Of a stretch of DNA of 64,000 nt, positions 3,065-36,344 are shown piece after piece. The position numbers and the translations under genes are program-made. The notes under the pieces were generated by a model that ran no database searches, had not been told where the DNA came from, and saw only the letters and a program-made list of their open reading frames with translations. Positions within the stretch are counted from its first letter, which is position 1; every line of letters starts with the position of its first letter. Source of the stretch: Burkholderiales bacterium (GTDB taxonomy: Bacteria > Pseudomonadota > Gammaproteobacteria > Burkholderiales > Burkholderiaceae_C); assembly GCA_011391155.1 (NCBI GenBank), contig JAABRA010000110.1, positions 1-64,000 on the forward strand. Direction: 5' to 3'.

Positions 3065-3230
3065 AACGAATCCGGGCCAGAGACTGATCTCCGGTCGCCG
3101 ACGGTAGTGCGCTGCAAAGGTGGCACGCGTTGGGCCGGCATTTCTTGCTGTCGGGCCGGCAACCTGCCTTGACACGCCCATACCTCCGATATATGGTGAA
3201 GTCCGCAGCTGGATTCACAGGACTCAACAT

Positions 3231-3773
3231 ATGAACTACACCAAACTCGTCTTATGCGCCGCGTTGGCAACCGCTTCCCTTGCCACTTTTGGACAGGCGG
3301 AAAAGGTCATGAAAGATCGGGACGTCAACGAGGCAGCCCTGATTGACGCACTGCTTCCAGAGCCCAAGCAACTCTCGCGGTCCATCCGCATCAGTTCTGA
3401 GCGCGATGTCAAGGCAGCACCATCAAAGCGCGCGTCTGCATCGATGTTGATCACATTCGAGACAAATTCTGCCGAACTGACCCCGCAGGCCAAGAAGATG
3501 CTGGACACCCTCGGTCGGGCCATGCAATCCGACAAACTCGCTGAACTCAAGTTTTCAATTGAAGGGCATGCCGACCCTAGAGGTGGCGTGGAGTTCAACC
3601 AGCAACTGTCCCAGGAACGGGCTGAAAAGGTTGTCAGCTATCTGGCAGAGAATCAACAAATCGAGCGGAGTCGGCTCAAGGCCGTCGGCAAAGGCCCCAC
3701 CGAGCTCCTGAATACTGCAAACCCGGACGCGCCTGAGAATCGCCGAGTGACTGTCAAGACCGTGATTGAGTGA
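3231..3773 (+). CDS. OmpA-family outer membrane/periplasmic protein
   Basis: Signal peptide MNYTKLVLCAALATASLATFGQA; OmpA C-domain (FETNSAELTPQAKKMLDTLG, IEGHADPRGG, NRRVTVKTV). Confidence 0.85.
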   Translation: MNYTKLVLCAALATASLATFGQAEKVMKDRDVNEAALIDALLPEPKQLSRSIRISSERDVKAAPSKRASASMLITFETNSAELTPQAKKMLDTLGRAMQSDKLAELKFSIEGHADPRGGVEFNQQLSQERAEKVVSYLAENQQIERSRLKAVGKGPTELLNTANPDAPENRRVTVKTVIE

Positions 3774-3819: not shown

Positions 3820-5661
3820 CTAGTTGATTTCTGCAATAGAAAACTTGGCCGCGCCGTATGCACTTGAACAATCGTCGGTCGATTTGCACCGAGGGGTTCC
3901 GGCAAGAACGGCCGAGTCGCCTGAACTGCTTCTCAGCATAGACTCGACTTTCGCTGCCGAAAATTCGGAAAAGGCGCCCGCCTTGGTCAATTCAATCTTG
4001 CTGAAGTCTCGGGGATGATCCGATACCAGGGCGACAAAGTGGTTGATCCCTGGTGGCCCACCTGCAGTCATTGTCCACCCCGGCCTGGGCAAGCTGATTT
4101 CTTTCCCCGCAGCCACGGTATTCTTCTGATCGAGGGCATTCGGGAAGAGTAGATAGATGTGATTTTTGTCGGTCCCGACCATCAGGATATACAAATATCC
4201 CGGCTTTTCGGAGAGGACCCGGAAAGTGAGCTTTCCCTTCCCGATTTTTACCTCGGTCTTGTCCAGCCCGACGGTAACGGGGCGATCAACTTCCCGACGA
4301 TCGTACAACTGGTCAAGCGCGTCGATGGGATCATAGGTCTTGCCTTGTCCTGCGGAGGCTGAGGCAGCAGGCACTGACGCCGATGGTTCATTGGTCTGCG
4401 CAACCGGCGCCGGCTCTGGGGGCGCCGGCCGGACCTGAGCCGTTTCAACAGGCTGCTTTACAACGCCAGCCGCGACATCCGGTCTGGCGGATCCTGATGG
4501 AGCGCCTCCGACGACGGGCGCTGGTTCACGAACCATCATGAAGTACGCAGTCATGCCTGCGGCCACACTCACCAGGGCGCCCAGAACAATGATCATTCCC
4601 TTCTTGCGACCATTTACGGGGCTGGCCTGCGACGCTGGAGCTGGATCGGAATGGCGAATCCCTGCCGGCTCGCGAGCGTGGTGTTCCAGTTCAAGGAGGC
4701 TGCGAAACCCGCCCAGATCCTGAGGCCGGTCTTCTGGTCGCACGGCCAGCGCCTTGTCAAGTCCGCGCAGGAAGCCCTCGCTGTACCGTCCTGCGGCTGC
4801 CTTTGTCAACGGTACCGTTGTGTCATTCATCAGTCGTCCGACGGACGGCGTTGGCGGTTTGCCCATGATCGCGTAATGGATCACTGCTGCAATCGCATAA
4901 ATGTCGGTCCAGGCGCCTTGTTTCATGCCGGGCTCGTCGGCGTACTGTTCAATCGGCGCATAACCGGGCTTGAGAATCACCGTCAAGGCCTTGTCCATGT
5001 CACCGATGACCTTTCGGGCTGCACCAAAATCCAGCAGCACCGGGCGCCCATCCTTGAGCAACAGAATGTTGTCCGGTGCAATGTCCCGGTGAAAGCAACT
5101 TTGCTGATGCAGCAGTTGAAGGGCATCGATCAACGGCGCCAGCAGTTTTTTGAGCCATTCTTCGCCGGGAGGAGACTTCATTTCCAGCAAAGCCTGTTTC
5201 AAAGTCAGCCCTTCGTAGAACGGCATGACCATATAGGCAGTGCCATTGGCCTCCCAAAATCGGTAGACCTTAACGAGTGAGGGGCTGTCGAATTGGGCCA
5301 GCAATCGAGCCTCGTTGATGAAACTCCTGAGACCTGCCGCAAATGTTTCTGCGTGCCGTTGTGATTTCACACTGACCGTCACACCATCTGCTCTGGCCGC
5401 CAACGATGAAGGCATGTACTCTTTGAGCGCGACATCCCGTCCTAATGAGTGATCATGAGCGAGATAAACAATACCAAAACCACCGACACCTATCAACGCC
5501 AGAATTTCAAATTCACCTATTCGTGTTCCGAGCGCAAGCGCATTATGATCCTGCGGCTCATTCGATGCGTTGATTTTGGGGGCAGACCTTTCCTTCGCTG
5601 ATACTGGCCTTATTACAGTTCTGTCATCATCATCAGCTTCAGGGTTCATTGTTGTTACCAA
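3820..5661 (-). CDS. ppkA: PpkA-like Ser/Thr protein kinase with one TM helix and a C-terminal DUF4384-like domain (T6SS-associated)
   Basis: Kinase motifs GVGGFGIVYLAHD, VALKEYMP, CFHRDIAPDNILLL and LDFGAARK; TM GMIIVLGALVSVAAGMTAYFMMV; start may be the internal Met at 5649. Confidence 0.85.
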   Translation of the reverse strand: MVTTMNPEADDDDRTVIRPVSAKERSAPKINASNEPQDHNALALGTRIGEFEILALIGVGGFGIVYLAHDHSLGRDVALKEYMPSSLAARADGVTVSVKSQRHAETFAAGLRSFINEARLLAQFDSPSLVKVYRFWEANGTAYMVMPFYEGLTLKQALLEMKSPPGEEWLKKLLAPLIDALQLLHQQSCFHRDIAPDNILLLKDGRPVLLDFGAARKVIGDMDKALTVILKPGYAPIEQYADEPGMKQGAWTDIYAIAAVIHYAIMGKPPTPSVGRLMNDTTVPLTKAAAGRYSEGFLRGLDKALAVRPEDRPQDLGGFRSLLELEHHAREPAGIRHSDPAPASQASPVNGRKKGMIIVLGALVSVAAGMTAYFMMVREPAPVVGGAPSGSARPDVAAGVVKQPVETAQVRPAPPEPAPVAQTNEPSASVPAASASAGQGKTYDPIDALDQLYDRREVDRPVTVGLDKTEVKIGKGKLTFRVLSEKPGYLYILMVGTDKNHIYLLFPNALDQKNTVAAGKEISLPRPGWTMTAGGPPGINHFVALVSDHPRDFSKIELTKAGAFSEFSAAKVESMLRSSSGDSAVLAGTPRCKSTDDCSSAYGAAKFSIAEIN

Positions 5662-5681
5662 AAATTAAGGCAGTTATAAAA

Positions 5682-8087
5682 TCACTGTGTTGCCACGGCG
5701 GTTCCACGTTTGACGTAGCGAACCAGTTCCTGGCGATCATTCTGATTAATTGCGCCACCTGACAATCTAACGATTGTTTCATGGGCGATATCAGCACTGA
5801 TGCCTGGTGAAACCCATATATTACGCTGCAAGCTGGCCCCCAAATCCATGTTGAAACCTCGGGCCTCGATTTTGTAAGTATCAAAAGTTCCAGCGGGAAC
5901 CGTCACGCGCTCTTTTGCAACAACTTTCAAATCGTATCGGAAAGTGTATTTAATTCCATTGGGCCGAGATTGCTTGAAATGGGTTCGCCATTGCTTGCCA
6001 ACAAAAAGATTTGCAGGATAAAACTGACGCACAGTATCGAAGTCACCTAGCTGGTTTCGCTGGGAGTTCCCCATAAGGTCAGAAATATAATCACCACCGT
6101 TGTATTCAACCCGATCTCGATTGATATCAACTGCAGTAACGCGAAGGGAAAGGCTCTTTTTCGCTTTTGTAAACCCATCAATTATTTGAAATTCATACTC
6201 ATCGCCAACCTGATAGGTACGAAAATGTTCGTCGAAACCCTCAAAATAGGGCGTTGGCGCCACGTGCATTGGCTGCATGCCGCCCGCGACATCCTTGACA
6301 TCGGTGCGATCCTTCTCGGCAGTCAAACGCGCAATTTCCACTCGTGAAGCCTGTTCTTCGGCGATTGCTTTCCGCGCAGCATCCGCACGCGCCAGTTCTG
6401 CCCGTTCAGCCTGTTCCCGGCTTGCTTGTGCCTGGGCTTGCGCCAACTTCGCCGCCTCCGCTTCCTGAGCTGCAAGCCGAATGGCTGCGATCCGCGCGGC
6501 CTCCAGGCGCGCCGCCTCGACCTGTGCAGCCTCAAGCCGGATTGCGGCGGCACGAGCTTCATCCAGGCGTGCCTTTTCAGCCCTGGCTTCTTCCTGGCGG
6601 GCCGATGCGACACGTGCCTCTTCCTGTTTCGCCGCAGCAACCCGCGCCTGCTCCATGCGCTCCGCAACCCGTCGAGCCTCATCCAGTTGGGCAGCTTCCG
6701 CTCGCGCCTGCTCCAGTCGGGCCGCGGCGGCTCGCGCCTCTTCCAGCCGGAGGGCAGCAAGGCGCGTCTCTTCCGCACGCGCTGCCGCCGCGCGAGCCTC
6801 CTCCTGACGAATGGCAGCCAGGCGGGCTTCCTCCAACTTTCGATCGGCCTCACGCGCCGCCGCAATTCGGCTGGCCTCCTGCCGGGCGGCTTCCGCACGG
6901 GCAACCTGCGCCTGCGCCAGCAGTTGGGACTCGATGGCCCGCTGTTGCGCGAGATTCGCGTCCTTGGCTTGTTGGGCGGCAACGATCGACGCCTGTTGCT
7001 TCGCAGCCTCAAGACGCGCAGCTTCAACCCGAGCCGCTTCTGCCCTGGCCTTGGCGGCTTCAGAACCTTCCTCCGCAGCTGCAGTCTTCTCTGTCTTAGG
7101 AGGCGATGTGCCGGCCTCACGCGCCATTTCTTGCGCCCAAAGCCGCTTCAACAAGAACTGCGCCTGCTCTGCCGAGATGCCATTGGGATAGGTTTTCAAA
7201 AATTTGGCGACTTCATCAACCAGAAGCGCACTGCCACCAGACCTCACACCCACCCAGGCTGCGCTCTCCTGATCATCCAGCTTGGCGCGCTCCGCAACGG
7301 CAAGGGCTTTTCGCTCTCCCGGAAAAAGGTACAGGTCACGGTCAATAAGCGACGACAGCTCCCAAGGTATCTGACGACCTTTCGATTCAGTCATCACGCC
7401 GACACGTACCCGCATAAAACCATCAATCAGCGACTCACTCTGCACCGACAGTTCCCGCAATAAATGCTTGGTGTAAAGCCCGTTTCTTCCAGTACCGTCA
7501 AGGGCCACCTGGCCCGGACCTGTGGCGTAGGCCAAAAGAGTCCCGACAGGAGGATTGTAGGGACTTAGCCCCTTTGATCCACCACGATAGAGCCCTTGAA
7601 ACGGGTCGTCGCGGCACGCATCCAGAATTACAATCAGGCTCTTGTCCTTGATTCTTTCCATATAGCGGATTAAATCGGTCACATCAACCGTCTGTTTAGC
7701 AACGTCGTCCATCGATTTTATGGTGGCATTGACGGGAATAAGATAGTTGCGGGAATTCAATTGAACACCATGACCCGCATAATAGAACATCCCAAATTTG
7801 ACTTTGGGATCTTTTATTTGTTCACCGAATTTAACGACCGCGGCTCTAAATTGCTCCTGACTGGCATCCATTTGCAGATCGACGGTAAATCCTGCGCCTT
7901 TCAGCAGTTCTGACATGTCATTGGCATCACTTTTTGTATTCAACAGCGGAGCGATCTTATAGGCGGCATTTCCAATAACAAGCGCGACTCTCTCGCCGGG
8001 AGCCGCCTGTGCTGAAAAACCCGTTGAGGTCACTCCAAGCAACATGAAGACCGCCACAACAATTCGTAAAATTATCTGATTATTCAT
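5682..8087 (-). CDS. Secreted caspase-family (peptidase C14-like) protein with long Ala/Arg/Glu-rich helical region and a C-terminal beta-rich domain
   Basis: Signal peptide MNNQIILRIVVAVFMLLGVTSTGFSAQA; p20-like ERVALVIGNAAYK, catalytic-type YYAGHGVQ and LDACRDDPF; AAGGAA RBS before ATG at 8087 (ORF track extends to 8168). Confidence 0.85.
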   Translation of the reverse strand: MNNQIILRIVVAVFMLLGVTSTGFSAQAAPGERVALVIGNAAYKIAPLLNTKSDANDMSELLKGAGFTVDLQMDASQEQFRAAVVKFGEQIKDPKVKFGMFYYAGHGVQLNSRNYLIPVNATIKSMDDVAKQTVDVTDLIRYMERIKDKSLIVILDACRDDPFQGLYRGGSKGLSPYNPPVGTLLAYATGPGQVALDGTGRNGLYTKHLLRELSVQSESLIDGFMRVRVGVMTESKGRQIPWELSSLIDRDLYLFPGERKALAVAERAKLDDQESAAWVGVRSGGSALLVDEVAKFLKTYPNGISAEQAQFLLKRLWAQEMAREAGTSPPKTEKTAAAEEGSEAAKARAEAARVEAARLEAAKQQASIVAAQQAKDANLAQQRAIESQLLAQAQVARAEAARQEASRIAAAREADRKLEEARLAAIRQEEARAAAARAEETRLAALRLEEARAAAARLEQARAEAAQLDEARRVAERMEQARVAAAKQEEARVASARQEEARAEKARLDEARAAAIRLEAAQVEAARLEAARIAAIRLAAQEAEAAKLAQAQAQASREQAERAELARADAARKAIAEEQASRVEIARLTAEKDRTDVKDVAGGMQPMHVAPTPYFEGFDEHFRTYQVGDEYEFQIIDGFTKAKKSLSLRVTAVDINRDRVEYNGGDYISDLMGNSQRNQLGDFDTVRQFYPANLFVGKQWRTHFKQSRPNGIKYTFRYDLKVVAKERVTVPAGTFDTYKIEARGFNMDLGASLQRNIWVSPGISADIAHETIVRLSGGAINQNDRQELVRYVKRGTAVATQ
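6477..6836 (-). repeat. 12-copy degenerate 30-bp (10-aa) tandem repeat within the caspase-like gene
   Basis: Exact 10-residue register: LEEARLAAIR QEEARAAAAR AEETRLAALR LEEARAAAAR LEQARAEAAQ LDEARRVAER MEQARVAAAK QEEARVASAR QEEARAEKAR LDEARAAAIR LEAAQVEAAR LEAARIAAIR. Confidence 0.9.
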
Positions 8088-8387
8088 ATTTCCTTCCATC
8101 AGGGGATGAAGACCCCTCGTAAAGGTTTTAAAATTTCGCATCGTCTCGTCTGACACAGTTTCTGCCATTCCGTCGGCGATTCGGAGGTGGCTTCGCTACG
8201 TCACCCAGGTGCACCCGAACATTTTTTCCACTTTTACAATAAGGATGGAACGCAGATCTGGGTCACATTTCGGATGCACATTAGCACGTAAGAACCGGGC
8301 CTGTCTAGCAACACGCGCAGACCACTGAACCATCAGAAGGTGTCAGCTACGTCCGAAGACTGTTCCTCAGAATCCAAGCTGGCAACG

Positions 8388-9119
8388 TCAGGCACCACGC
8401 ATTTCATTGTCGAGGTCGCCACACCACAATCCCGCTATGGAATCTTCAATAGTCGATGAGACGAAGACTCTTGGATCGACGACCGGTGACCCGCAGCACC
8501 ACACACAGCACCCTCGCTTTTCCTGGAAATTTGATTCCCGTGACGCGGCAGCGAAGAACAGCATCATGGTTAGCGGTTCGATCACTTCGACGGTCTTGAG
8601 GTTCCGGCCCCAATCCTGGGCATGCGCTGAAGGACTCGTCGGCGAACCCAAGGCAACCAATCCGGCATCAAGCGCGTCGATCGACCAGTCTCCCTCCAGT
8701 GCATCGATGGCAACATCTTCAAGTCGTTGCATCCAGGTCCACAATTCGGCCTGTGCTTCGGGCCTGTCCGGAACAGCCGCCAGGGGAGTTGCCAGTGTCA
8801 AAGGATAATATCGACCGACCCGATCAACCGACGGCATCAAGACGCCAGCCCAAGCTGCCTTGTTGAGTGGTGTCGGCATGAACCCTGGCGTTAACAAGAA
8901 TCGCCATGTCGGGCTTCTGAGGTAGTGATCAAGCCAGCCGCTCCCCCAGCGCCCGCGTAGCTCCGTCAGGCCGCGTGATACCCACTGATCCCAATGGCTG
9001 ACAAAGTCGACATCCAGTCGGCGGGTTACAAAATCTCCGACGGTCGGCAACTTGCCATGCCAACCAATCGCGATTTGTTCAGCCGCGAGGGGTGCCGGAT
9101 TCACAGCGATCCAGGGCAA
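8388..9119 (-). CDS. tagF: T6SS-associated protein TagF
   Basis: GWHGKLPTVGDFVTRRL and LTPGFMPTPLNKAAWAGVLMPSVDRVGRYYPLTL signature; adjacent to tssM. Confidence 0.88.
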   Translation of the reverse strand: MPWIAVNPAPLAAEQIAIGWHGKLPTVGDFVTRRLDVDFVSHWDQWVSRGLTELRGRWGSGWLDHYLRSPTWRFLLTPGFMPTPLNKAAWAGVLMPSVDRVGRYYPLTLATPLAAVPDRPEAQAELWTWMQRLEDVAIDALEGDWSIDALDAGLVALGSPTSPSAHAQDWGRNLKTVEVIEPLTMMLFFAAASRESNFQEKRGCCVWCCGSPVVDPRVFVSSTIEDSIAGLWCGDLDNEMRGA

Positions 9120-12100
9120 CGAAACTGCTGGATCTCGCGCATGCGAAACGGATTCAAAACGCTATTGGCAATGACCTCAAACCTTGCCCGTTTACCGTCC
9201 ACATTGACCAGCAGATTGAATTTTTCAGGCTGTGACGTGGGCTGCACGTCAAATCGATCAAAAAGGCGAAACAATGCCCAGGGTCCATCAAAAGTCATGG
9301 GCGTGCTTGCCGGAGTTGTCGACAGCTTGATCTGGGAACTGACTTTCTGACTGGGCCAGCTCAGAACCGTCGACGCCGTATTCCCGGGCACAAATTTCAG
9401 CACCTGACCATCAATGTCGATCGACAGGTCTTTCAGGCCCTCACTCATCTCGACCGCGCGAATTTCGATCTTGAACCCCGGGGCTTTTCCACCACCACGG
9501 AAGAATCCTTCCCGGATACGCGCTGCACGCTGGAATTCGGCCAACGCAGCAGATCCTGCTGGCCGGGCTCCATCGGCCAGTGGTTTGTAGCTCCAGGGGT
9601 TGGTCCCCGTATCAACCAGCGCAGAAAGACGGCGTTGATAGAACTCATCAAGCATTCCGCCCGGTCCGAACAGTTGCCCAAAATCATCCGGGAGCACATC
9701 GGCCTTGGACCCGGACGCAAACGGATAGCGGTTGGCGATGGCGCGACTGCAAAAATCAAAAATGGGCTTCAGCTCACCTGTCAGAACTTCCCGTTCGCCT
9801 GCCCGACTTCCTTTGGCGCCCGCATCGGCCAAAGTGGCCAACATGCTGCGAATAGGCTCTGGTTGTGTTCCAGCCGCCGCCTTTACCTTGTCAGCACCGG
9901 CGCTCGGCGGCGGCGGCGACTTGCTTTTCTGTGCAGAGTCCACCGCGAGCAACTGGGCATAGACCTCACCAAACAGTTTCAAGACTTCATCTATCGGCGC
10001 GGGCGACCCCTGGACCAGGCGATGTATCGACGCAAAATGGTCATCCACGATCCGCTCGATCGGACCGTTCGCGGCCGCAGACGGAGCAGGTTGCACACCA
10101 GCAAGCTTTGCCATTTCGTCCTTGTTCTTCGAAGCCTGATCGGAAAGTTTTCCGACCAGACTTTGATTGGCCGGCCCCACAGGGGATATCAAGGTCGTTT
10201 CCTTCGCCACGGCACGCAGGTACGCAGCCAACGGTGAATCCACTGCGGCAAGCACCCTGGCCACTTCCAGACTCCGGCTAACATCCGCGACTTTCACCAG
10301 GCGCACATCGGCCAAGTATTTGTCCCAAGTTTTTACATAATCTTCGAGATAGAGGCGACGCACTCGATCGCCTAGCTCAGTGCCCGCAATATCCTTGGCC
10401 TTCAGCCCGCCTTTGACCCCCAAAATCCAGGTTTCCTCCGCAGCGAGTTTCACGGCGGCAGCCTGCACAGATCCCTGGAAGGCGCTTTGGTACCCCTCCT
10501 TTGAGTAGAAACCGGAAATACCCTTTGACAGCGGCTCGCCACTGGCACGCTCAAAGACCTGCTGCGCATTCGGACCACCCGCGCGGGCCACAGAAAACTC
10601 CGGCAGATTTCCTTTGTACTGGCGCTTGAGCCGGCTGTAGATCCTGTATTCCAGCGGAAACACGGTGAGCATTTCGCGCGTGGCCTCAACCAGGGCTTTG
10701 TCCATGGGCTTCACGTTCGCGGGTGGGCCCAACGCCAGCAGTGCATCAAGATGCGCATCAAGCGCCTTGCGCTGTTCAGGGCTCAAGCTTCGGCTGTAGT
10801 TGACGTCCCAGTCCACTTCAATCCAGGCCTTCAACGTCTGCGCATCATATTTGTCGGGCGTGTACAGCATCAGGTAGCTTTTCAAAGCTTCATAGGCTTG
10901 CTCCAGATTGTTCCTGTTGCTTGCCCGCAACCGCTCTTCCAGACGCTGCGCCACACGGGGAAACAAGGCGTGCTCCAGCAATCTTCGGTAGGCAATCTGC
11001 GCCGCGGCATCAAGCTTGTCCCCCTGATACAGACCTAGTGTGTTGAGGAACGGTGGGCTGTCAATCGCAAACTCCGGCGTCGCGGCGGCATGGCCCACAG
11101 CTGTCAGTACGGGTGGCAATGGAGCAACGTCCCCCGACTGGGCCCCCGGAAGCGCATCTACAAGCTGGCGCAACTCAGGCAGTTTCTGAATCACCTGCTG
11201 CACATAGGCCCGGTTGCGCGTGAAACTCACCCCCCAGCCCACCAGCAGCCCTATGGACACGAACGCGATGGCACCAAAACCCACAGCTCGCGCTATCAGG
11301 CGACGCCGTTCCGAAGCAGCATTAAAAGCCACCAGATCTTGTTCTGGAAAGACCAGATCCTGCAGGAGACGCCGCAGGAAATAACTCCTGCCATGTTGAG
11401 CCACCGTCGTCGCCTTGCCGGCACGGACACCAAAGGACCGCGCGAGGGCGCCCATCACACGATCAATGGGGGTGCCTTCCTGGGTGCCACTCGTGAAATA
11501 GACACCACGCAGGCGCGCTTCCTCTTGAAGGGTGCCCCCCGATGCAAAAACAGCTCGCATGAACTCGCCAAGAACGGGGCGCAAGCTGGAAAACTCAACC
11601 GGGAAAGTAAAAATTGCGGCGCGTTTCGCTGCATCACGCTCTGCCTGCAGTCTCTCAAACAGGGCGCTGTTCAAGCGCTGCTCAAGGCTGGAAAACTCCG
11701 GGTCGAATGCGGTCAGGGCCTGGCTCGCCGTGGACGCTGCATCAAAGGTGAATCCCCAAACCTGATCCCGCAGATCCTTGCCAAACGCATCAAAAGTTTC
11801 ATTGAATCCGGCTACCAGATCGGTCTTGGTGACTAGCACGTAAACTGGTGGTCTGACTCCCAGCTTGGTCTGTAAGTCGTTCAACCGTGCCCGCAATTTC
11901 CGGGCGTGTTCGTCGCGTTCAGTCCGGTTTTGCTGCAAGAGGTCCTGAATATTGATCGTCAGCAGGACACCATTGATGGGCCTGCGCGGACGGCTTTTGC
12001 GCAGTAGTGCCAGAAAATTATCCCAGGCCTTTGCGTCAACGGCGGAATCTGACTCCTGGGTGGCGTAGCGTCCCGCGGTGTCGATCAGCACGGCCTCACT

Positions 12101-12619
12101 GGTAAACCACCAGTCGCAATTTCGTGTGCCACCGACCCCCTTCACGGGCCCCCCGGATGAGTCTTCGGTCAACAAAAATCTCAATCCGGCATTCTTCAGT
12201 GCAGTCGTCTTCCCCGATCCGGGGGCACCGACGAACACGTACCAGGGAAGTTGGTAAAGAGTACTCGCGCCCGATGAAAAAAGTCCACGCTTGCCGGCAC
12301 CCTTGAGTTTTTCGATGGCCTCACTAAATCGCTGGCTCAAGACCTCGCTTTCCTTGTCAATGGCACTGGTCGCGGAGGAAATCCCTTGAAGCAGTGCGCT
12401 GTTGGAGCGTCGCTGCCGCCAGGCACGCCACACAAACCGGCTGATCCAAGCCACCCAGATCAGGCCAACCACCAAAGCCCGCCACAAAAGGGCGTCCAGC
12501 GGGCGCCAGCTTCCAATCGCCAGGAGCGGCCCAACCCACCAGATCAGCGCTGACAACGCGATCAGGCCGATCGTGCCAAGAACTGCCGGACTGACTAACC
12601 ATTTCATCCATCGCTTCAT
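9101..12619 (-). CDS. tssM: T6SS membrane complex protein TssM (IcmF)
   Basis: N-terminal TM helices, Walker A FVGAPGSGKTTALKNAG, 1172 aa IcmF architecture. Confidence 0.95.
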   Translation of the reverse strand: MKRWMKWLVSPAVLGTIGLIALSALIWWVGPLLAIGSWRPLDALLWRALVVGLIWVAWISRFVWRAWRQRRSNSALLQGISSATSAIDKESEVLSQRFSEAIEKLKGAGKRGLFSSGASTLYQLPWYVFVGAPGSGKTTALKNAGLRFLLTEDSSGGPVKGVGGTRNCDWWFTSEAVLIDTAGRYATQESDSAVDAKAWDNFLALLRKSRPRRPINGVLLTINIQDLLQQNRTERDEHARKLRARLNDLQTKLGVRPPVYVLVTKTDLVAGFNETFDAFGKDLRDQVWGFTFDAASTASQALTAFDPEFSSLEQRLNSALFERLQAERDAAKRAAIFTFPVEFSSLRPVLGEFMRAVFASGGTLQEEARLRGVYFTSGTQEGTPIDRVMGALARSFGVRAGKATTVAQHGRSYFLRRLLQDLVFPEQDLVAFNAASERRRLIARAVGFGAIAFVSIGLLVGWGVSFTRNRAYVQQVIQKLPELRQLVDALPGAQSGDVAPLPPVLTAVGHAAATPEFAIDSPPFLNTLGLYQGDKLDAAAQIAYRRLLEHALFPRVAQRLEERLRASNRNNLEQAYEALKSYLMLYTPDKYDAQTLKAWIEVDWDVNYSRSLSPEQRKALDAHLDALLALGPPANVKPMDKALVEATREMLTVFPLEYRIYSRLKRQYKGNLPEFSVARAGGPNAQQVFERASGEPLSKGISGFYSKEGYQSAFQGSVQAAAVKLAAEETWILGVKGGLKAKDIAGTELGDRVRRLYLEDYVKTWDKYLADVRLVKVADVSRSLEVARVLAAVDSPLAAYLRAVAKETTLISPVGPANQSLVGKLSDQASKNKDEMAKLAGVQPAPSAAANGPIERIVDDHFASIHRLVQGSPAPIDEVLKLFGEVYAQLLAVDSAQKSKSPPPPSAGADKVKAAAGTQPEPIRSMLATLADAGAKGSRAGEREVLTGELKPIFDFCSRAIANRYPFASGSKADVLPDDFGQLFGPGGMLDEFYQRRLSALVDTGTNPWSYKPLADGARPAGSAALAEFQRAARIREGFFRGGGKAPGFKIEIRAVEMSEGLKDLSIDIDGQVLKFVPGNTASTVLSWPSQKVSSQIKLSTTPASTPMTFDGPWALFRLFDRFDVQPTSQPEKFNLLVNVDGKRARFEVIANSVLNPFRMREIQQFRCPGSL

Positions 12620-12670: not shown

Positions 12671-13975
12671 CTACTCTGAACTCTGACCCAATCGCAAGGT
12701 AATCTCAACGCGCCGGTTCTTGGCGCGTCCGGCGGGCGTTCCATTCTCGGCAACCGGTTTGGTATCGGCCAGTCCCTCGGAACGGATTCGTTCGGGCTTA
12801 ACCTTGAGCGAAAGCGTTTCCTTGACCGATTGGGCACGCGCCTGTGACAAATGCCAGTTGGAGGGGTAACGAATTGAGCGGATCGGCTGGCTGTCGGTGT
12901 GGCCCGTCACCAAGATCTGTCCCGGAGTACGCTGCAGTTCCTGTGCGATTCGATCCAGCAGCGGCAAAACTCGCGCCGACACCTCGGCACTTGCGGGTTC
13001 AAAGAAGCCATCGCCCTGAATGATGATGATGGAACGATCGGCCAAATCATGCACTGCGACGGCTCCAGCATCAATCTCGGGCTTCAGGAAGCCAGACATC
13101 CGTGGAGTCGGCGCAGGTGTGGGAGGCATCGGAATGGGCAGTGCAGCGGCCTTGACATCCAGCCCCTGCAAGGCAGAAAAGGCGTCATTACTTCCACTGG
13201 ACGCCGCAAGTCGCAAAGCAATGAAAACAATAGCCAGGAATAGTGCGGCCACCGTGGCAACAACCCACACGGGGATACCGTCTCTAAGCCGGCTTCCCGA
13301 GGCCGGAACACCCGCCCATCTGGGTGACAGCTCTGGTGGAGCGGTACCACTTTGATCCCGCAACATCAAGGCGAGCTTTTCGCGTACGGTGGCCAGTTGT
13401 GCTCGACCATCCTGCAGGACCCTATAGCGCCCCTCAAAACCCAGGGCGAGCATGGCATAGATCAATTCAAGAAGACCACGGTTTCCGCTGACATTCTCGG
13501 CCAGTTTCCCGAGGAGTTGAAACAGCTTCTCGCCGCCCCACGTTTCATTGTGGAAAAGCACCAAAAGACTCTGCGCGGACCAAGCCCCTGAGCCTCCCCA
13601 TGGTGTACTGGATGCGCACTCGTCCAGAAACGTGCACAACAGGTAGCGGCCGGCCACCACTTGCTCATTGGGCAGACCACGGGCGCGGGCATCCGACTCG
13701 AACTTTCGCACACCCTCAACCAGCGCGGCACGAAGCCCCGCCGGGCTTTCGTGATGGGGCATGGCGCGAATGCTGGCCCCCGCGATCAATAAAGAAGAAG
13801 CAATCTGCAGGACAGGACTCAATCCCGAGATTCCGGGCAAATCTGGCAACGGCACGGAATCCGGCAACGCCGGCACAGGCAGGCTGGCCGAGTCGGGACG
13901 TCGCCCTCTTCCCGCAGAGGGTTTGATCACCGTGCGATCAGACTCAAACGCAGCGAACGGATCTGAGTCGCTCAT
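12671..13975 (-). CDS. tssL: T6SS protein TssL (DotU) with C-terminal OmpA-like peptidoglycan-binding domain
   Basis: DotU region (CTFLDECASSTPWG, LLVLFHNETWGGEKLFQLL), TM, then an OmpA domain (VTGHTDSQPIRS..., KNRRVEITLRL). Confidence 0.93.
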   Translation of the reverse strand: MSDSDPFAAFESDRTVIKPSAGRGRRPDSASLPVPALPDSVPLPDLPGISGLSPVLQIASSLLIAGASIRAMPHHESPAGLRAALVEGVRKFESDARARGLPNEQVVAGRYLLCTFLDECASSTPWGGSGAWSAQSLLVLFHNETWGGEKLFQLLGKLAENVSGNRGLLELIYAMLALGFEGRYRVLQDGRAQLATVREKLALMLRDQSGTAPPELSPRWAGVPASGSRLRDGIPVWVVATVAALFLAIVFIALRLAASSGSNDAFSALQGLDVKAAALPIPMPPTPAPTPRMSGFLKPEIDAGAVAVHDLADRSIIIIQGDGFFEPASAEVSARVLPLLDRIAQELQRTPGQILVTGHTDSQPIRSIRYPSNWHLSQARAQSVKETLSLKVKPERIRSEGLADTKPVAENGTPAGRAKNRRVEITLRLGQSSE

Positions 13976-14039: not shown

Positions 14040-15377
14040 TCATGGTCGAATGGCCCAAAACTCAAGTTCCAGCCCGGGGAAATCACCCGCCACATGCATG
14101 GCAAGACCGCTGGACGTTTCCAGCTGCCGCCACATTTCGTTGCCCCGTGTTTCAAGTTCGAAATAGCAGAAGCCTGCATGGAAAGGGATCTGCCGCGGCG
14201 CAACGGGTAACGCGCGCAGCCCCACACCCGGCAATTGCAGATTGACAAGGTCTGCGAAACGTTCGGTGGGCCCGATCTTCACCTGGGTCGGAAACCGTGC
14301 CCTCAATTGCTCACCATTCATCTGGGCGTTCACGGCAAGCACAAAAACGGCCGTTCTCTGCAAGTCAATGTCGGGGATCAGCGCGACCTTGATGCCATGT
14401 TTGCGCTCTTGAAGTTCGATCGGTATCGCCGATTGCTCGCGGACCATCGACAGCGACTGGCGCAAATCACTCATCAGCACATGAAAACAGTGGGCCGGGT
14501 CATCGTGGTTGTAAGCGACAAGTTCGCGGGGACGTTTGCTTTCGTTAAAGGTCGACAGATCCCCCGAGAGCGACAGCAGCAAGGCATAAAACTGCTCTGT
14601 GTGAAAAACAGGGGACCTTCGTGCGTGAACCAGCAAAGGTTCATACCGGTTGCAAATCTGCAGCAGCAGGAAGTCGGTGATTTCACCGACGCCGGCCCGG
14701 CCCGGTTGGGCCAGCCGTGCCGCCAGGGTTTCGCCGCGCTGATGCAGCAAACCAATAATCTCGCGCAAATAGCCGTCGGCCACCGTATTTTCTGGCACGT
14801 GCAACAGTACCGGCAGATGTTGCGGGTCGAGCAGGATCCGGCCATCGGTGCGGCGTTCCACAATTCTCGCAACACCCAGACAACTGAATCCGTCGTTGGC
14901 GTCGCGTTCCAGCATCAGCCGCAAATTGAGGCGGCCGATCTGGAGCGGCGCCTGCCTCAGACTGGCCGCATGGCTGTCCGCGACTTCCAACTCTGTCGCT
15001 TGAAAGCGTGCGGGCATCGAGGCAGAAACATCTTCAACATCGCTCTCCGCGACGCCAGGTCGCAACAGGGCCAACGCCAGAACGACCCGTTCATCACGCA
15101 CATCACCAGGAATGTCGATCGCCAGCGGAGCGGGATCGTCAGCGGGCAAGGAAAACGGCGTGCCATCACGAAAAACCCCGGAAGCCTGGGTCAAGGCCAG
15201 CTTGCCCTGGTGCAAGGCGGCCTCATCGATGGCCAGAGAGAAAAACCCCCACCCGTAGGGCACCGACATCCTGAAGCGCCCGTCTATCGTGCGCGAAACA
15301 TACCGGTCCTGTTGCTGAAAATGCTGCGGCTGAAGGAACATGCCTTCGGTCCACATAACTTTGTTGTGCCAAGTCAT
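14040..15377 (-). CDS. tssK: T6SS baseplate protein TssK
   Basis: MTWHNKVMWTEGMFLQPQHFQQQDRYVSR N-terminus characteristic of TssK. Confidence 0.95.
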   Translation of the reverse strand: MTWHNKVMWTEGMFLQPQHFQQQDRYVSRTIDGRFRMSVPYGWGFFSLAIDEAALHQGKLALTQASGVFRDGTPFSLPADDPAPLAIDIPGDVRDERVVLALALLRPGVAESDVEDVSASMPARFQATELEVADSHAASLRQAPLQIGRLNLRLMLERDANDGFSCLGVARIVERRTDGRILLDPQHLPVLLHVPENTVADGYLREIIGLLHQRGETLAARLAQPGRAGVGEITDFLLLQICNRYEPLLVHARRSPVFHTEQFYALLLSLSGDLSTFNESKRPRELVAYNHDDPAHCFHVLMSDLRQSLSMVREQSAIPIELQERKHGIKVALIPDIDLQRTAVFVLAVNAQMNGEQLRARFPTQVKIGPTERFADLVNLQLPGVGLRALPVAPRQIPFHAGFCYFELETRGNEMWRQLETSSGLAMHVAGDFPGLELEFWAIRP

Positions 15378-15510: not shown

Positions 15511-15903
15511 TCAGGGGGGGATCATGTGTGTCGTCTGGCCCGGATCGAGGAACATGATCACGCCGCCCCAGGTGCACATCAACTTCGACATATTGTCCAG
15601 TGCCGGCGCATTGCAAAGCATGACGGTCGGCGCCCCGGTAACCCAAGGGGCGAATGTCGCGGGGATGCAGGGCTGGGGCTTCAATACACCCGGTGGTGGC
15701 GTTGCCATAGCAGCAGCAACAACCGGATTCGACGGGCAGATACACATACCGAAAGGTGGAATATTGACATTGGGCTTGTGGTCCATGATGTTGGCGGCCA
15801 CCATGTTGCTGGTCATCACCGTCTTGGGAGTCGGGATCAATTTACTCGGCGCCAGGCCGAAGCTACATTTCATCGTCGCGCCCATGCAGGTCTGAATTGC
15901 CAT
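15511..15903 (-). CDS. DUF4280 / PAAR-like protein
   Basis: MAIQTCMGATMKCSFGLAPS..., MDHKPNVNIPPFGMC, PCIPATFAPWVTGAPTVMLCNAPALDNMSKLMCTWGGVI: DUF4280-type sequence. Confidence 0.82.
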   Translation of the reverse strand: MAIQTCMGATMKCSFGLAPSKLIPTPKTVMTSNMVAANIMDHKPNVNIPPFGMCICPSNPVVAAAMATPPPGVLKPQPCIPATFAPWVTGAPTVMLCNAPALDNMSKLMCTWGGVIMFLDPGQTTHMIPP

Positions 15904-16691
15904 CACGCATCTCCCGGTGGTTGAACGCCCTGAACTTCTGCCGCACCACTTAACCAGATCGTCAGCGCGGTGTAGTTGTCATGACTTTTGAGTCCGCTCG
16001 TGGCCTCACAGATAGCCTTTTCAATGGCAGCGAGCCATTCTTCGGGCGTCCTTGCCGTGCGCAGGAGGCTCTCAAGGATGTCATCGGGGAGGTACTCCCA
16101 GACGCCATCGCTGCATAACAAAAATACATCACCGCCTGACACTATCCGAGTGGAACTGGAGCCACCGAGTTCCAGTTCCTCATCGTCATTTCCGAGCGCC
16201 GAGCGAAGCACACTGCGCTTCGGGTGACCGCGTGTTTCATCCGGGCGAATCAGCCCGGCATCGACCAGGGACTCGACAAAACTATGGTCCCGGGTCCGCT
16301 CCACCAGGCGCCCGTCCCGAAACCAGTACAGGCGCGAATCCCCGGAATGAACCCAGTCAGTTCGACCATCCACGAAATCAATGACCAGGCATACGATGGT
16401 GGAGTGCATCTGCTCCAGAATCGTGCCGGATGTTCGCCCATCCAGAACGGCCTGATTCGTCTGACGGACCAGTTGTGACAACTCAGGTCCGCTTGTCGAT
16501 GGCGTTCTTGAAAACCGGGCCAGCAGGCTTTCAACCGCCAGCCGGGATGCCACGTCGCCACCGCCATGCCCTCCCGCACCATCCGCAAGGACACAACAGA
16601 ACTGCCGATCTGAACTCCAGTACCCACAGGCATCTTCGTTGTACTTGCGCCCCCCGGGCTCAGACAGGATGGCAACTTTCAGTGCAAGCAT
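15903..16691 (-). CDS. pppA: PP2C-family Ser/Thr phosphatase (T6SS PppA-like)
   Basis: ADGAGGHGGGDVAS, VHSGDSRLYWFRDG, LCSDGVWEYLPDDI PP2C motifs within the T6SS locus. Confidence 0.9.
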   Translation of the reverse strand: MLALKVAILSEPGGRKYNEDACGYWSSDRQFCCVLADGAGGHGGGDVASRLAVESLLARFSRTPSTSGPELSQLVRQTNQAVLDGRTSGTILEQMHSTIVCLVIDFVDGRTDWVHSGDSRLYWFRDGRLVERTRDHSFVESLVDAGLIRPDETRGHPKRSVLRSALGNDDEELELGGSSSTRIVSGGDVFLLCSDGVWEYLPDDILESLLRTARTPEEWLAAIEKAICEATSGLKSHDNYTALTIWLSGAAEVQGVQPPGDA

Positions 16692-16698
16692 GATCGGC

Positions 16699-18369
16699 CT
16701 ACCCTTCAGAGTTCAAGGTTTCAATCTGATCGATATATTGCTCGTAAGCCTTCAGAAACGCGGCACCGAACAAGGCATTGAAATCGTCTTCGGCCTCGGT
16801 GGCTAACTGCTGGTAGAGCGCCTGAAAGAGCTCCCAGAGCTTGGCCTTGCGGGTAGCCGGAATCAGATTGGACAGTGTTGATCGACCGGCCAGTTTGCTT
16901 TCGAGGGCCGCAGGGTCAAATCGCTTCAGTACACCTGCCAAGGCGGCCTCCATGCCCGCCATGATGCCGAGCTGGTGGGCTCTCAAATCATCGAACGCGT
17001 CGCGCATGGACTCCACCGGGGGCATGAATCCACTCACCTTGGGGCCCAGCAAATACTGTAGAGCCACTTCAACGCTAGGCGAAAATTTCAGCGGATTGTT
17101 CGATTTGGAAACGATCATGGTGACTTCCGCCCGGACCTCGCGCTTCAGACTGGCACGCGCGGCAAGCAACTCAATCGATCCTTTGGTCGCTCCACGAAGC
17201 AATTGCCCCAGCAGTCGCATCAATTCCGGGCTTAGGGACTGGATTCGCAAATCTGGTGTGCCGAGCCCCTCCACCAGCGCTGCCAGGAGTTCCGCGTCCC
17301 TGGCAGGTGCGGCCTGCGGTGCTGGCGAAGGGAACGCGCTGACGACCTCCGGGCCCTCAAACTTACGAGCCGAACCAGCAGGCAGCAGGTCATCGGTTTC
17401 GATGGTGCGACTGGACGGCGCCGGCTCGCTTGCTGGCGCAGCGGTGCCGAAACTCTTGGCTTCCCGTGAGCCACTGTCCCAGGAAAAGACAGGAGCCGAA
17501 AGACCAGGATTTTCCACGGTGGGCCGACTTTTTGGTGCCTGCTTCGCTTCGACCCAAGGCATCTGCAGATCAGAAACGTGGTCTGCCTCGGTTCTGATCC
17601 CGGCCTTCGGCCCGTCCTGCAAGGACCGGAAAGGGTCCGATGCGGCACTGGTGTTGGGCATCGCCACCGGTGTTGCGAGGCTTGAATTAGCGAAGGGATC
17701 ACTTGTTGAAGGGCCGCTGCCCAAGCCAAACAGCGCGTCCAGAGAGTCTTCCTGAGTGGCTCGGCTCACGGCCAGATCCGAGAGGCGTGCCGCTCCCTGA
17801 CTTGTTGCCTGCCCCATTCCGCTGGAGCCTGAACCGATGCTGAATGGATCGGGGGGGGAAAGCTTTTCGAAAGGATCCCAGTCATCGGGAATTCCCTTGG
17901 CAGGCCCCTTCCCTGCCGGTTCCAGAAACGGTTTTGCCGCGCTCCTTGTGTCCATCGGACTTGGCCAGGGTTCACTGCTGGCCCGGGGCACAGGCGCGGC
18001 AGGCACGGGGCTTTGGCCGCCACCGAACATCGCCTCGAAAGGGTCGACCTTGACTGGTGATCGGTGCTCAGACACCGCGATGGTGTAACTTCCCATGCGG
18101 ATCTGATCGCCGTCGGCCAGCATCTGTTCGCTTCCGGACGCGACCTCCCGGCCATTCACCAGCACGGCGTTGCTGCCGCGTCCAGCCAGGGCATAACGAC
18201 CCCCGCGAAACACAATCTGCGCCTGGACCCGGGAAATGGTGCGCTCGGGATCCGGCAGTATCAGCTTGTTGGTCTCGGCCCGGCCGATGCAACCGCCAAG
18301 TTCGTCAAAAGAACATGCCAGATTTGCGACCGGTGTCCCGTTGAAACTGGTAACAGTCAGCGTAATCAT
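16699..18369 (-). CDS. tagH: T6SS-associated FHA-domain protein TagH
   Basis: N-terminal FHA (GCIGRAETNKLILPDPERTISRVQAQI), proline-rich linker, C-terminal TagH region (QLGIMAGMEAALAGVLKRFDP). Confidence 0.92.
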   Translation of the reverse strand: MITLTVTSFNGTPVANLACSFDELGGCIGRAETNKLILPDPERTISRVQAQIVFRGGRYALAGRGSNAVLVNGREVASGSEQMLADGDQIRMGSYTIAVSEHRSPVKVDPFEAMFGGGQSPVPAAPVPRASSEPWPSPMDTRSAAKPFLEPAGKGPAKGIPDDWDPFEKLSPPDPFSIGSGSSGMGQATSQGAARLSDLAVSRATQEDSLDALFGLGSGPSTSDPFANSSLATPVAMPNTSAASDPFRSLQDGPKAGIRTEADHVSDLQMPWVEAKQAPKSRPTVENPGLSAPVFSWDSGSREAKSFGTAAPASEPAPSSRTIETDDLLPAGSARKFEGPEVVSAFPSPAPQAAPARDAELLAALVEGLGTPDLRIQSLSPELMRLLGQLLRGATKGSIELLAARASLKREVRAEVTMIVSKSNNPLKFSPSVEVALQYLLGPKVSGFMPPVESMRDAFDDLRAHQLGIMAGMEAALAGVLKRFDPAALESKLAGRSTLSNLIPATRKAKLWELFQALYQQLATEAEDDFNALFGAAFLKAYEQYIDQIETLNSEG

Positions 18370-18403: not shown

Positions 18404-19201
18404 TCAGCGAAGGATGTGGCAACGCCCGTTCACCACCGCAACACGCACCGGCCACGCCGAAGACGTTCCATCGGGCGCAGGCAAGGTGCTCAGGATGGGG
18501 GCACCGTTACCACCCAGGCACTCTATCAGGCGCCCGCTGGCGCATCGCCTGAAGACGAACTCCGGTGCGCTGGGAATGGTCATTTTCAGTGCCTTTGTGG
18601 CATGAAGCAGATGCAGGCGCGAGCGCATGCGGGTCACGAGTTCAGCTACGGGCTGCCCATAGGATTGCCCCAGCTCTTCGATACGTAACCGGCTTGCTGT
18701 CAGGAACGATTCTGCATCGCCGCGCTGCAAATCCACCGCGATGCCCTGCAAAAATGCCGCAATCAGCGGCCGCTGGGCTTCAATATCCGTAATCTCGGGC
18801 ACGTCGAGCCAGCGCCAACGCGGAAACTTGACCGGCAATACGGCATTGCGCGTGAGGGTCAGCGGCGTCGTGTACACGTCGCCGACGGGCACGGCCCAGT
18901 CGATCTCCGCAACGGCGCGGGCGGTCAAAGCGCTTGCCACCTGGCCGGTACGCGGCACCAAAAGGCGAAAACTGACACCGACGGTATCGTCGGCAAGCTT
19001 GGGCGCGGTCGCTGTCGGTTGGCCCGGGGCGCCGGGATCAATGACCAAGCTGATTTCATTGTCACCCTCCAGCAGATATTCGTGCACCGGCATGCACAGC
19101 GCGCCCTCGTGCGGGCCCACCCGGCCAACGGGAATGTCGTTGAGCAAGACTTCCGCGCTGCACCCGCGGACATCGAGGCGAATGATCACCAGACGTTCCA
19201 T
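18404..19201 (-). CDS. Conserved-looking hypothetical protein in T6SS cluster
   Basis: 265-aa ORF in the tssK-tagH-vgrG co-directional run; 1-nt stop/start overlap with the upstream gene; no family recognised. Confidence 0.7.
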   Translation of the reverse strand: MERLVIIRLDVRGCSAEVLLNDIPVGRVGPHEGALCMPVHEYLLEGDNEISLVIDPGAPGQPTATAPKLADDTVGVSFRLLVPRTGQVASALTARAVAEIDWAVPVGDVYTTPLTLTRNAVLPVKFPRWRWLDVPEITDIEAQRPLIAAFLQGIAVDLQRGDAESFLTASRLRIEELGQSYGQPVAELVTRMRSRLHLLHATKALKMTIPSAPEFVFRRCASGRLIECLGGNGAPILSTLPAPDGTSSAWPVRVAVVNGRCHILR

Positions 19202-20892
19202 CAGCCCAGACTCCAGTCCACCAGCTTGACAGCGGGCAACAGTGACAAGGTCTGGCGGGTCTGGCCCAGCAGGGGATCATGAATGCACACAGGAACCGCT
19301 ACAGCTTCGCTGTCCAGTTGCGCATACCATTGCCAGCCGCTGCCGCCGCTGGTCCGGGGGCGCAGGCCTGCCTCGCCGACCATGGCCCCGGCGCACGGGC
19401 TCACCATGCTCCACACGGCGCCCTCCTCCACAGCCATCGGTTCGAATTCCAGGCGAAACTCGAAGCGCCAGCGAACAACGCTTGACAGCAATACCGGGAA
19501 CAAACCCGGCTCGACACGCTCGCGGACGATCGGCCCGGTCCCCGATGCCTTGCCCTGTACCAGAAGCCGCACCCGGGTTCGCGTAACGCCCAGAAGCACC
19601 TCGCCCGTCATGCACACATCCACATCGGTGCCCAGATCCAGGTCGCCGAGAACGCGCATCAGCGGCTGATTCGCCAGGCCGCCCGGCCCCTCACGCCAGC
19701 CCCAGGTCAGCGCCGCCCGGCCGCACAGCAAACCTGCTGTCGCCGTCATGGCGGACTCCGTGGTCGAAGCGCTCCACGCTTCAAACAACCGGTCCAGTCC
19801 CTGCGCCAGTTGCAGGTCGAGCCCGTCCTGAAAGCCCTTGACCCACAGGTGCGAGGGCACCAGATCGCCATCGCGCTCGATGCGGCAACGCGTCAACGCC
19901 GGGGGATCAGCCGCTGTCCGCCCGGCGACCCGGGGCCACTGCTGCACGGGACCCGGGTCGCGTTGCAGGGCAAACAGCCATTGATCAGCGAGGTAAGCCC
20001 AGAGATAGTTCTCTACGGGTCCGATCGGCACACCCTCGTCGCGCAACCCACAGGTATCGATGCGCAACAAAGACATCTGCGGCATCGTCTCCTCGATCAA
20101 GGTCACCCCCAAGGAGTTGGTGGCCGCAGGTGCAGTCCGCGCCTGTACGGGCCAGCTGACGGCACGGGCGTTGTGGCCGTTCCAGCGCGAAGAACCGTCT
20201 CCCGTTACATGGGTGACCCTCGGATGGTGGTCCTGATCGCAGACAGCATGGGTCAACAGCCTGACCTGCAAGCGGGCCGCAAACGCCAATTTGGGAGCCA
20301 TCGTCAGGACGCAGATGAGGGCCGGAATCTGATGCTGTGCGCCGATCCGCAACGACAAATCGAGATCCGGTATCGGCAGCCGCTGCCAGGTGCCGTCCAC
20401 GAGCCGGTACTCGCGTCGCCAATCGACCTCCAGCAGCCGGATGTCCACCGCCTCCACGTCGCACGCGGCACGGGCCGAGCCCACAAATTCGTCGTCAGCC
20501 TCATGATTGCCTGCTTCGAGCAAATCCATCACGTTACTGTCGCCGCGCAGCAACTGCCCACTGATCGAACCCGCATCGCTGACACGGCGTTTCAGCTCCG
20601 CCGCACCTTTGACCACAAGCTGGTGCAGCTTGACCCGTTCATCCAGCCGTTCATCGGCAAGCAGGGCCAGCGCCCACTCGTTCTCGGGCTTGCGTTCGAA
20701 ATTGGGCCCGAACGCGCAACACAGATTGAGAAAACGTGCCACTGACATGTCGTCGGCAATCTGGTGCGACGTTGCGTTTCGCGCCACCACGTCCACAAAC
20801 TCACCCAGCTGCCCGCCCAATCTGGCGCGAAGATCAATCCATTGATTCGCGACGAACTCGGTTAACTGCTGTTTCAGGTTCAAGAAATTCAC
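19201..20892 (-). CDS. Hypothetical protein in T6SS cluster, between the 265-aa ORF and vgrG
   Basis: 563-aa ORF, co-directional and overlapping (TGATG) with the following ORF; no recognised domain. Confidence 0.72.
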   Translation of the reverse strand: MNFLNLKQQLTEFVANQWIDLRARLGGQLGEFVDVVARNATSHQIADDMSVARFLNLCCAFGPNFERKPENEWALALLADERLDERVKLHQLVVKGAAELKRRVSDAGSISGQLLRGDSNVMDLLEAGNHEADDEFVGSARAACDVEAVDIRLLEVDWRREYRLVDGTWQRLPIPDLDLSLRIGAQHQIPALICVLTMAPKLAFAARLQVRLLTHAVCDQDHHPRVTHVTGDGSSRWNGHNARAVSWPVQARTAPAATNSLGVTLIEETMPQMSLLRIDTCGLRDEGVPIGPVENYLWAYLADQWLFALQRDPGPVQQWPRVAGRTAADPPALTRCRIERDGDLVPSHLWVKGFQDGLDLQLAQGLDRLFEAWSASTTESAMTATAGLLCGRAALTWGWREGPGGLANQPLMRVLGDLDLGTDVDVCMTGEVLLGVTRTRVRLLVQGKASGTGPIVRERVEPGLFPVLLSSVVRWRFEFRLEFEPMAVEEGAVWSMVSPCAGAMVGEAGLRPRTSGGSGWQWYAQLDSEAVAVPVCIHDPLLGQTRQTLSLLPAVKLVDWSLG

Positions 20893-24613: not shown

Positions 24614-24868
24614 GATTGTGTGAAAATAATCAATATTTCATTGGCGAACCGGGTTTGAACGTCGCCAAGGGCTTCGGGCTGGCCGGGGCCTGTGCCTTCA
24701 TGTCCGCAAAGCAGGGTGGCGTCGCGTTCAGGGCCGCTGCCACGTGCGTTGTTGCCGTGGGAACGGCGAAAAGCCTTGCGTCTGGCCTGACCCTGTCGCA
24801 AACTGCGCGGCACGACCGGCCATTTCATGCCCCAAGCGGCGGGCACATCCTTAGGAACGGAGCCAGTG

Positions 24869-29100: not shown

Positions 29101-29126
29101 GATGGTCCTTTCGGGGGGCTGGGTGG

Positions 29127-32035: not shown

Positions 32036-32065
32036 CTGGTACAGCGTCAGGTTGCAGGCGAGCGT

Positions 32066-32572: not shown

Positions 32573-32599
32573 GTCCCAGACATTTCATGAATGAATGAA

Positions 32600-33412: not shown

Positions 33413-33667
33413 ATCGCAAGTCTCCCGCGCTGAGCGCACGTCAATGTCAAAAAAGCCCTAATCACAGTCACCCATCCAATCCGGTTCGCCGCCCGGTTAT
33501 GGAAGAGCTTTGTCTCCACCGCCAACGGATTCATTCACCGACCGGAGAGAGACCGCCAATGCGCAACCAACGCCAGGCGAAACTACCCATTGCGCAAAGG
33601 TCCGGCGCGATACCGTCGACTGGAACGGCAACCGCGCTGGACCGATACCGCATGAAGACCGCCGGGA

Positions 33668-34150: not shown

Positions 34151-34247
34151 TTTCGCGCTCCTTTGGTGCTCTCAGTGAGAGCGGTTAAATTCCCATACGC
34201 ACAAAACACGCGGCGCCAAACCAATGACGGGCGTGCACCCCTCTACC

Positions 34248-35738: not shown

Positions 35739-35779
35739 TGAATGCTCCTCAATTCAGTGTTGGGTTGATCTTCTAAATC

Positions 35780-36289: not shown

Positions 36290-36344
36290 AGGAATATCCT
36301 TCAACGGTTAAGGTTCTTGAAATATAAACGACCGACGGACGGCA

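Follow-up and report, generated by a model that had tools for sequence, protein, structure and literature searches.

The threonine-phosphorylation pathway of the type VI secretion system (T6SS) involves the kinase PpkA, the phosphatase PppA, Fha and TagF, and the extracytoplasmic signal of PpkA is unknown for most T6SSs. Exported proteins acting on PpkA include TagR of Pseudomonas, RtkS of Serratia and TssW of Acidovorax (PMC6082577, PMC12607579). RtkS, whose gene is linked to those of the pathway, binds and stabilises the periplasmic domain of PpkA (PMC6082577), and TssW of Acidovorax citrulli, encoded between ppkA and fha, is an outer-membrane partner of PpkA for which binding was shown (PMC12607579). 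Bacterial caspases, on their side, have few assigned jobs outside phage defence; a 2012 survey recorded OmpA domains in 14 metacaspase operons (PMC3501461). Here we describe a stretch of 64,000 nt (the window) from contig JAABRA010000110.1 of a Burkholderiales bacterium (GCA_011391155.1, a metagenome-style assembly, 78 % complete, in 414 contigs), in which a secreted caspase-like protein of peptidase family C14 and an OmpA-type protein are encoded next to a PpkA-like kinase of a T6SS cluster. We tentatively consider, with a probability of around 45 %, that caspase, OmpA-type protein and kinase form an extracytoplasmic input module to the T6SS threonine-phosphorylation pathway.

The cluster contains all parts of a T6SS except TssJ and its genes follow, on the minus strand, the order tssA, tssB, tssC, hcp, impE, tssE, tssF, tssG, clpV, a gene for a TPR-methyltransferase, vgrG, two unknown genes, fha, pppA, tssK, tssL, tssM, tagF, caspase and kinase. 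It thus has the kinase, phosphatase, Fha and TagF of the described pathway, including a kinase with a single transmembrane segment and an ectodomain, and differs from it by the adjacent secreted caspase and OmpA-type protein. The features of these three genes are as follows:

3213–3773, plus strand: OmpA-type exported protein from a subfamily linked to caspases; its gene and that of the kinase converge (PF00691, 2e-18; neighbourhood statistics)
3820–5649 (ATG start) or 3820–5661 (TTG start), minus strand: PpkA-like transmembrane Ser/Thr kinase with an extracytoplasmic DUF4384 domain (PF00069, 5e-27; PF14326, 1.2e-15)
3823–4329, minus strand: DUF4384 ectodomain, with homology to the C-terminal region of secreted proteins that combine caspase and DUF4384 (37–38 % identity over about 170 aa)
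5682–8087, minus strand: secreted caspase-like (C14) protein of 801 aa (Peptidase_C14, PF00656, 4e-35; open frame, with GGAAGGA before the ATG)
5685–6272, minus strand: C-terminal beta-barrel domain of the caspase (conserved; 61–67 % identity in the closest relatives)
6273–7085, minus strand: Ala/Glu/Arg-rich coil between the protease and the C-terminal domain (from sequence; poorly conserved, of varying length among relatives)
7332–7991, minus strand: C14 protease domain, aa 33–252 (PF00656; MALT1 paracaspase as closest solved structures)
7614–7616, minus strand: catalytic Cys158 codon (LDACRDD; Cys in 133/134 aligned C14 domains)
7770–7772, minus strand: catalytic His106 codon (YYAGHG; kept in 133/134 aligned C14 domains)
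8004–8087, minus strand: predicted Sec signal peptide, aa 1–28 (...GFSAQA, then APGER; by sliding hydropathy and by eye, not by a dedicated predictor)

Translation of the caspase from the ATG at 8087 is favoured over a possible upstream ATG at 8168, because a GGAAGGA ribosome site precedes the former and a clean signal peptide begins there. By alignment of its catalytic His and Cys, the product is a member of peptidase family C14. Asp156, two residues before Cys158, is present in the 134 C14 domains that we aligned, with Asp54 and Asp197 being nearly invariant, and the His, the Cys and Asp156 are all kept in the 17 T6SS- or kinase-linked domains examined. Among solved structures, MALT1 paracaspase is the closest by sequence (E 5e-10); residues D54, D156 and D197 of the window caspase fall, in the sequence alignment, at the positions of Asp365, Asp462 and Glu500, which line the arginine pocket (S1) of MALT1 (PMC4357240). 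From this match of acidic S1 residues, the window protein is predicted to be a paracaspase-like cysteine protease cutting after Arg or Lys. MALT1 is, however, a signalling protein of eukaryotes that also contains death and Ig domains, whereas the flanking domains of the window caspase are not homologous to these. AlphaFold2 models the C-terminal domain as a beta barrel (pLDDT 89), with fold matches to YmcC-like exported lipoproteins (E 1e-5 to 3e-4), and it is perhaps a binding domain. Pfam and profile scans found no PAAR, VgrG or MIX markers on the caspase.

The kinase contains the motifs GxGGFG, HRD and DFG, one hydrophobic segment (aa 351–371) and a Pfam match to DUF4384 spanning aa 471–545. 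This architecture of Ser/Thr kinase, transmembrane segment and ectodomain, in a T6SS locus with Fha and PppA, fits that of a PpkA-type kinase. The PpkA ectodomain of Pseudomonas is of the VWA type; in contrast to that of P. aeruginosa, the window kinase has no VWA domain identifiable with Pfam, its ectodomain being DUF4384. The DUF4384 model has a confidence of 75, below that of the caspase C-terminal domain, and a fold search with it gave no match at E < 0.001. DUF4384 is fused to secreted caspases in relatives and, therefore, the same domain type ties the kinase to caspases: among the 66 DUF4384 matches listed for the 121 genomes sampled from the family of the window, 18 are in frame with a C14 domain and 11, including that of the window, are within 8 kb of one, with 37 showing neither arrangement. 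Judging by topology, both the DUF4384 ectodomain and the caspase would be periplasmic.

The initial annotation of this locus, made by a model from the letters alone, had described the intact H and C motifs of the caspase, an N-terminal signal peptide, a transmembrane kinase with a C-terminal DUF4384 domain after only about 20 bp, and the location of both genes at the end of the tagF-tssM-tssL-tssK run. Our searches bore out these descriptions, with the signal peptide visible as a hydrophobic N-terminal stretch that closes with AQA and a caspase-kinase gap of 20 bp from the TTG or 32 bp from the ATG of the kinase, and the Pfam assignments agree with the position in the run, to which we add a gap of about 300 bp (8088–8387) between tagF and the caspase. 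The OmpA gene at 3213–3773 was absent from that annotation.

We examined the recurrence of this gene association in two samples, the 121 genomes of the family and 399 genomes of the order, the latter drawn after the question was posed; expected counts were derived from the numbers of C14 domains and genome size, and all linkage statistics ignore shared ancestry. The family C14 set comprises the matches listed, with the weakest ones falling outside it, and tblastn was used in low-GC loci, where the gene caller was unreliable. In the order, a C14 domain lies within 8 kb of five out of nine kinase homologues scoring at least 390 bits (0.05 expected), and an OmpA gene of the window type also occurs at five of these nine loci. 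A tenth locus, from genome G136, has a lower-scoring kinase and the full gene block described below. In the family, and outside the window, a C14 domain was found within 8 kb of at least three of the 22 closest kinases (0.19 expected) and of at least seven of 38 TagF loci (39 with the window; 0.28 expected). Among kinases of the 300–390-bit class, only one locus out of 59 has a C14 domain within this distance. A class-wide sample added just two genomes with a close kinase, and this kinase class is therefore mainly one of the order of the window.

The OmpA-type protein belongs to a subfamily tied to C14 and DUF4384. Among the matches listed for the family, 27 of its 31 homologues of at least 55 bits outside the window have a C14 or DUF4384 match within 8 kb, versus one of the 39 weaker homologues (Fisher, 4e-14). 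Alignments of the ten strongest homologues cover almost the entire protein, while most of the weak ones comprise the OmpA fold only. As in the window, the OmpA gene faces a DUF4384 kinase within 65 bp in G493 and G099. This protein, which we presume to bind peptidoglycan as is usual in its family, is thus a conserved third partner. The caspase operons of the 2012 survey are alike in that caspase genes are grouped with OmpA domains, although the extracts available of that survey report no link to T6SSs or T6SS kinases, and name secretion only as a rare function (PMC3501461).

The C14 partner takes diverse forms in relatives. In five of the seven family TagF loci with C14 (G067, G053, G099, G119 and G105), a caspase gene directly follows tagF, overlapping it by 4 bp, as called, in G067, G053 and G119. 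In G067 and G053, genes for a secreted DUF4384 protein, an OmpA-type protein and another caspase come next; in G053, the DUF4384 protein carries a domain for peptidoglycan binding and the presence of an ECF sigma gene was verified. A different block, found in G135, G445 and G136, consists of a giant exoprotein with a C-terminal C14 domain, fha, pp2c and ompA, facing a DUF4384 kinase, tagF, tssM and tssL; the exoprotein has a two-partner-secretion domain in G445 and G136, and is adjoined in G136 by a ShlB/FhaC transporter. G497 contains an exoprotein, OmpA and the kinase, and G054 a C14 protein, OmpA and the kinase, in both cases with no T6SS core gene in the stretch read, so that we scored them as kinase-linked. 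In G177, a caspase of 450 aa adjoins the kinase, and in G072 (L103, 13322–15319, plus strand) and G463 (L119, 13927–15945, plus strand) an exported metacaspase-like protein (GHG, DTC) is encoded in the T6SS operon, downstream of the kinase and ahead of impE, with an MltA transglycosylase gene between this protein and the kinase in G072.

Related arrangements were also noticed. Two-partner-secretion exoproteins of about 1500–1950 aa, with an intact C14 domain at the end, are encoded beside T6SS control genes in L126 (11050–16911, minus strand) and L125 (3712–8175, plus strand). In the Rhodobacteraceae loci L082 (8746–11473) and L088 (8709–12932), an OmpA-type gene and a caspase are near a run of tssA, tssB, tssC, hcp and impE; a DUF4384 protein adjoins the caspase in L088, where two small genes appear ExbD-like by eye.

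The association between a caspase and a T6SS kinase proposed in the initial annotation is therefore real and recurrent, but the strict order of tagF, a lone caspase and the kinase was found only in the window genome among the samples searched. Relatives use other C14 proteins elsewhere in the locus, with the OmpA-type protein being the conserved third partner. The outcome of the neighbourhood survey suggested along with that annotation is mixed, short of both refutation and full support: the exact pair occurs just once in the samples, whereas C14 domains are common near this kinase class in the order sample. Overall, the interpretation is partly supported. A BLAST search of the 399 order genomes with the p20 of the window caspase retrieved no caspase beside a kinase homologue, because the C14 domains near the kinases diverge too far to pass the cutoff; they were found with the Pfam profile, which overturned this negative as a refutation of the link. 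In the open-access literature searched, we found no caspase in the described TagF/PpkA/PppA/Fha pathway, as the annotation had held, no paper linking caspase, DUF4384 and T6SS, and no extension of the OmpA-caspase association to a T6SS kinase; the T6SS link of exported caspases appears to be undescribed there.

Here, the genetic position that RtkS or TssW has elsewhere is held by an exported protease along with a protein of a peptidoglycan-binding family, and this is why we read the trio as an input to the kinase. The exported caspase, the OmpA-type protein and the DUF4384 ectodomain would meet in the periplasm and assemble as an input module, in which the protease would act on a module partner. 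The module would pass an envelope change on to the PpkA-like kinase that, together with PppA, Fha and TagF, would set T6SS assembly, and it would take the place of TagQRST/TagR in Pseudomonas, RtkS in Serratia and TssW in Acidovorax. TagR (of the FGE-sulfatase type), TagQ and TagST were not found among the window proteins scanned, some small open reading frames (ORFs) being outside the scan. Like the window caspase, RtkS is an exported protein encoded with T6SS kinase-pathway genes, but no protease function is described for it, and the ectodomain of its PpkA is of another type. TssW is similarly an exported partner encoded beside the kinase in a Burkholderiales T6SS; kinases of the probable TssW class, however, seldom have C14 nearby, and three candidate sequences (L131, L127), which are proxies and not the true TssW, gave no match in the window below E = 0.1.

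In a more specific version, which we regard as rather improbable, the caspase would gate the kinase: upon an envelope breach, it would cut the flexible periplasmic linker of the kinase, which contains Arg and Lys (aa about 372–440), DUF4384 or the OmpA anchor, acting as an irreversible on/off switch of T6SS assembly, and different caspases would have been taken up for this function in several lineages. If the protease does act on the kinase or its anchor, a contractile weapon would be under proteolytic control exerted from the outer side of the inner membrane. Exported caspases, the OmpA subfamily and the DUF4384 kinase class offer a concrete gene set for approaching both the signal of PpkA and the jobs of caspases.

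The alternative that best survives, although we consider it unlikely, is that the caspase is a passenger: a mobile gene, or one acquired by recent transfer, that inserted between tagF and the kinase and is co-transcribed with no role in T6SS control. A tree of 134 C14 domains places the window caspase in a set of six (support 100/95) whose other members are outside T6SS loci, as are the nearest caspases (Inhella L026, G036, L025, G084 and G020), and GC content is 0.50 in the protease domain and 0.46 in the C-terminal domain, compared with about 0.58 in the T6SS genes. Given this nesting and lower GC, the window caspase may be a recent recruit or passenger. The order tagF-kinase, without an intervening caspase, is common (G055, G120, G065, G028 and G072), and the sampled congener G051 has no C14, TagF, DUF4384 or kinase match among those listed. 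To these points, which weigh against an input module, we add that 19 of the 22 closest family kinase loci lack a C14 domain within 8 kb among the matches listed, that caspases at different T6SS loci are neither orthologous nor equally placed, and that a 300-bp gap parts the window caspase from tagF. Nevertheless, unrelated C14 genes are found much more often than expected by chance at T6SS kinase and TagF loci, the OmpA gene facing the kinase is one of the caspase-linked subfamily and only 32 bp separate the caspase from the kinase. On the tree, T6SS- or kinase-linked C14 domains require eight label changes, at least seven of them forced by strong branches; since the loci were partly picked as T6SS-linked, it is this polyphyly that counts, and not a shuffle test. 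The association has therefore arisen repeatedly, and a single recruited ancestor for all T6SS caspases is rejected by the tree. An assembly error at the caspase would take two junctions, since the genes on either side, tagF and the kinase, are those usual there; in a metagenome-style assembly of this completeness, it keeps a small residual probability. A second caspase gene of the same genome (L001; G000:C358:11419-12072) is in another branch of the tree.

It is less probable still that the protease trims outer-membrane or peptidoglycan-associated proteins for T6SS building, without kinase signalling. The peptidoglycan binding assumed for the OmpA-type partner and the MltA transglycosylase at the G072 locus are in line with such remodelling, but the linkage is specific to the DUF4384 kinase class and almost absent from the 300–390-bit kinases. 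The initial annotation also contemplated self-protection, whereby a periplasmic caspase would destroy incoming or sibling effectors active in the periplasm. Immunity proteins against periplasmic effectors are often exported, as is this protein, and the cluster does have a VgrG; the caspase gene lies, however, about 13 kb away from vgrG and beside control genes, with no effector-immunity pair recognised, and the C14 linkage concerns TagF and the kinase, around which, and not around vgrG, neighbours were searched. Self-protection is thus less supported than a sensor role, and we deem it very unlikely. That the caspase is itself an effector delivered into other cells is hardly credible: T6SS clusters do carry effectors and a C14 domain ends a surface exoprotein in relatives, but the window protein has a Sec signal peptide and no PAAR or VgrG domain, and is not adjacent to vgrG. 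Finally, an anti-phage or programmed-death module of caspase and kinase, suggested by weak similarity to PADLOC models of both, is rejected because the caspase is exported, the kinase goes with Fha, PppA and TagF, and the PADLOC matches are generic to the kinase fold.

The remaining T6SS genes of the window were assigned as follows, with TssE, Hcp and TssB being identified by eye from the ORF list:

8388–9119, minus strand: tagF (PF09867, 5e-42)
9101–12619, minus strand: tssM (IcmF; profile search)
12671–13975, minus strand: tssL with an OmpA domain (profile search)
14040–15377, minus strand: tssK (profile search)
15903–16691, minus strand: pppA-like PP2C phosphatase (profile search)
16699–18369, minus strand: fha/tagH (TIGR03354, 4e-78)
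20970–23018, minus strand: vgrG (profile search)
26365–37514, minus strand: clpV, tssG, tssF, tssE, impE, hcp, tssC, tssB and tssA (Pfam for ClpV, TssG, TssF, ImpE, TssC and TssA)

The two genes between fha and vgrG (18404–19201 and 19201–20892, minus strand), neither of which has a Pfam or NCBIfam match, are possible VgrG-linked adaptors or effectors; a homologue (41 %) of the first one adjoins fha in G031 (L106). At the far edge of the cluster, a gene on the plus strand (37794–39137) codes, as judged by eye only, for a FecR-like exported protein. Within the cluster and on the opposite strand, there is another tssC-like gene whose start resembles TssB (24827–26233, plus strand); G082 has a homologue of it (L020, 7243–8598) that separates tagF from the kinase.

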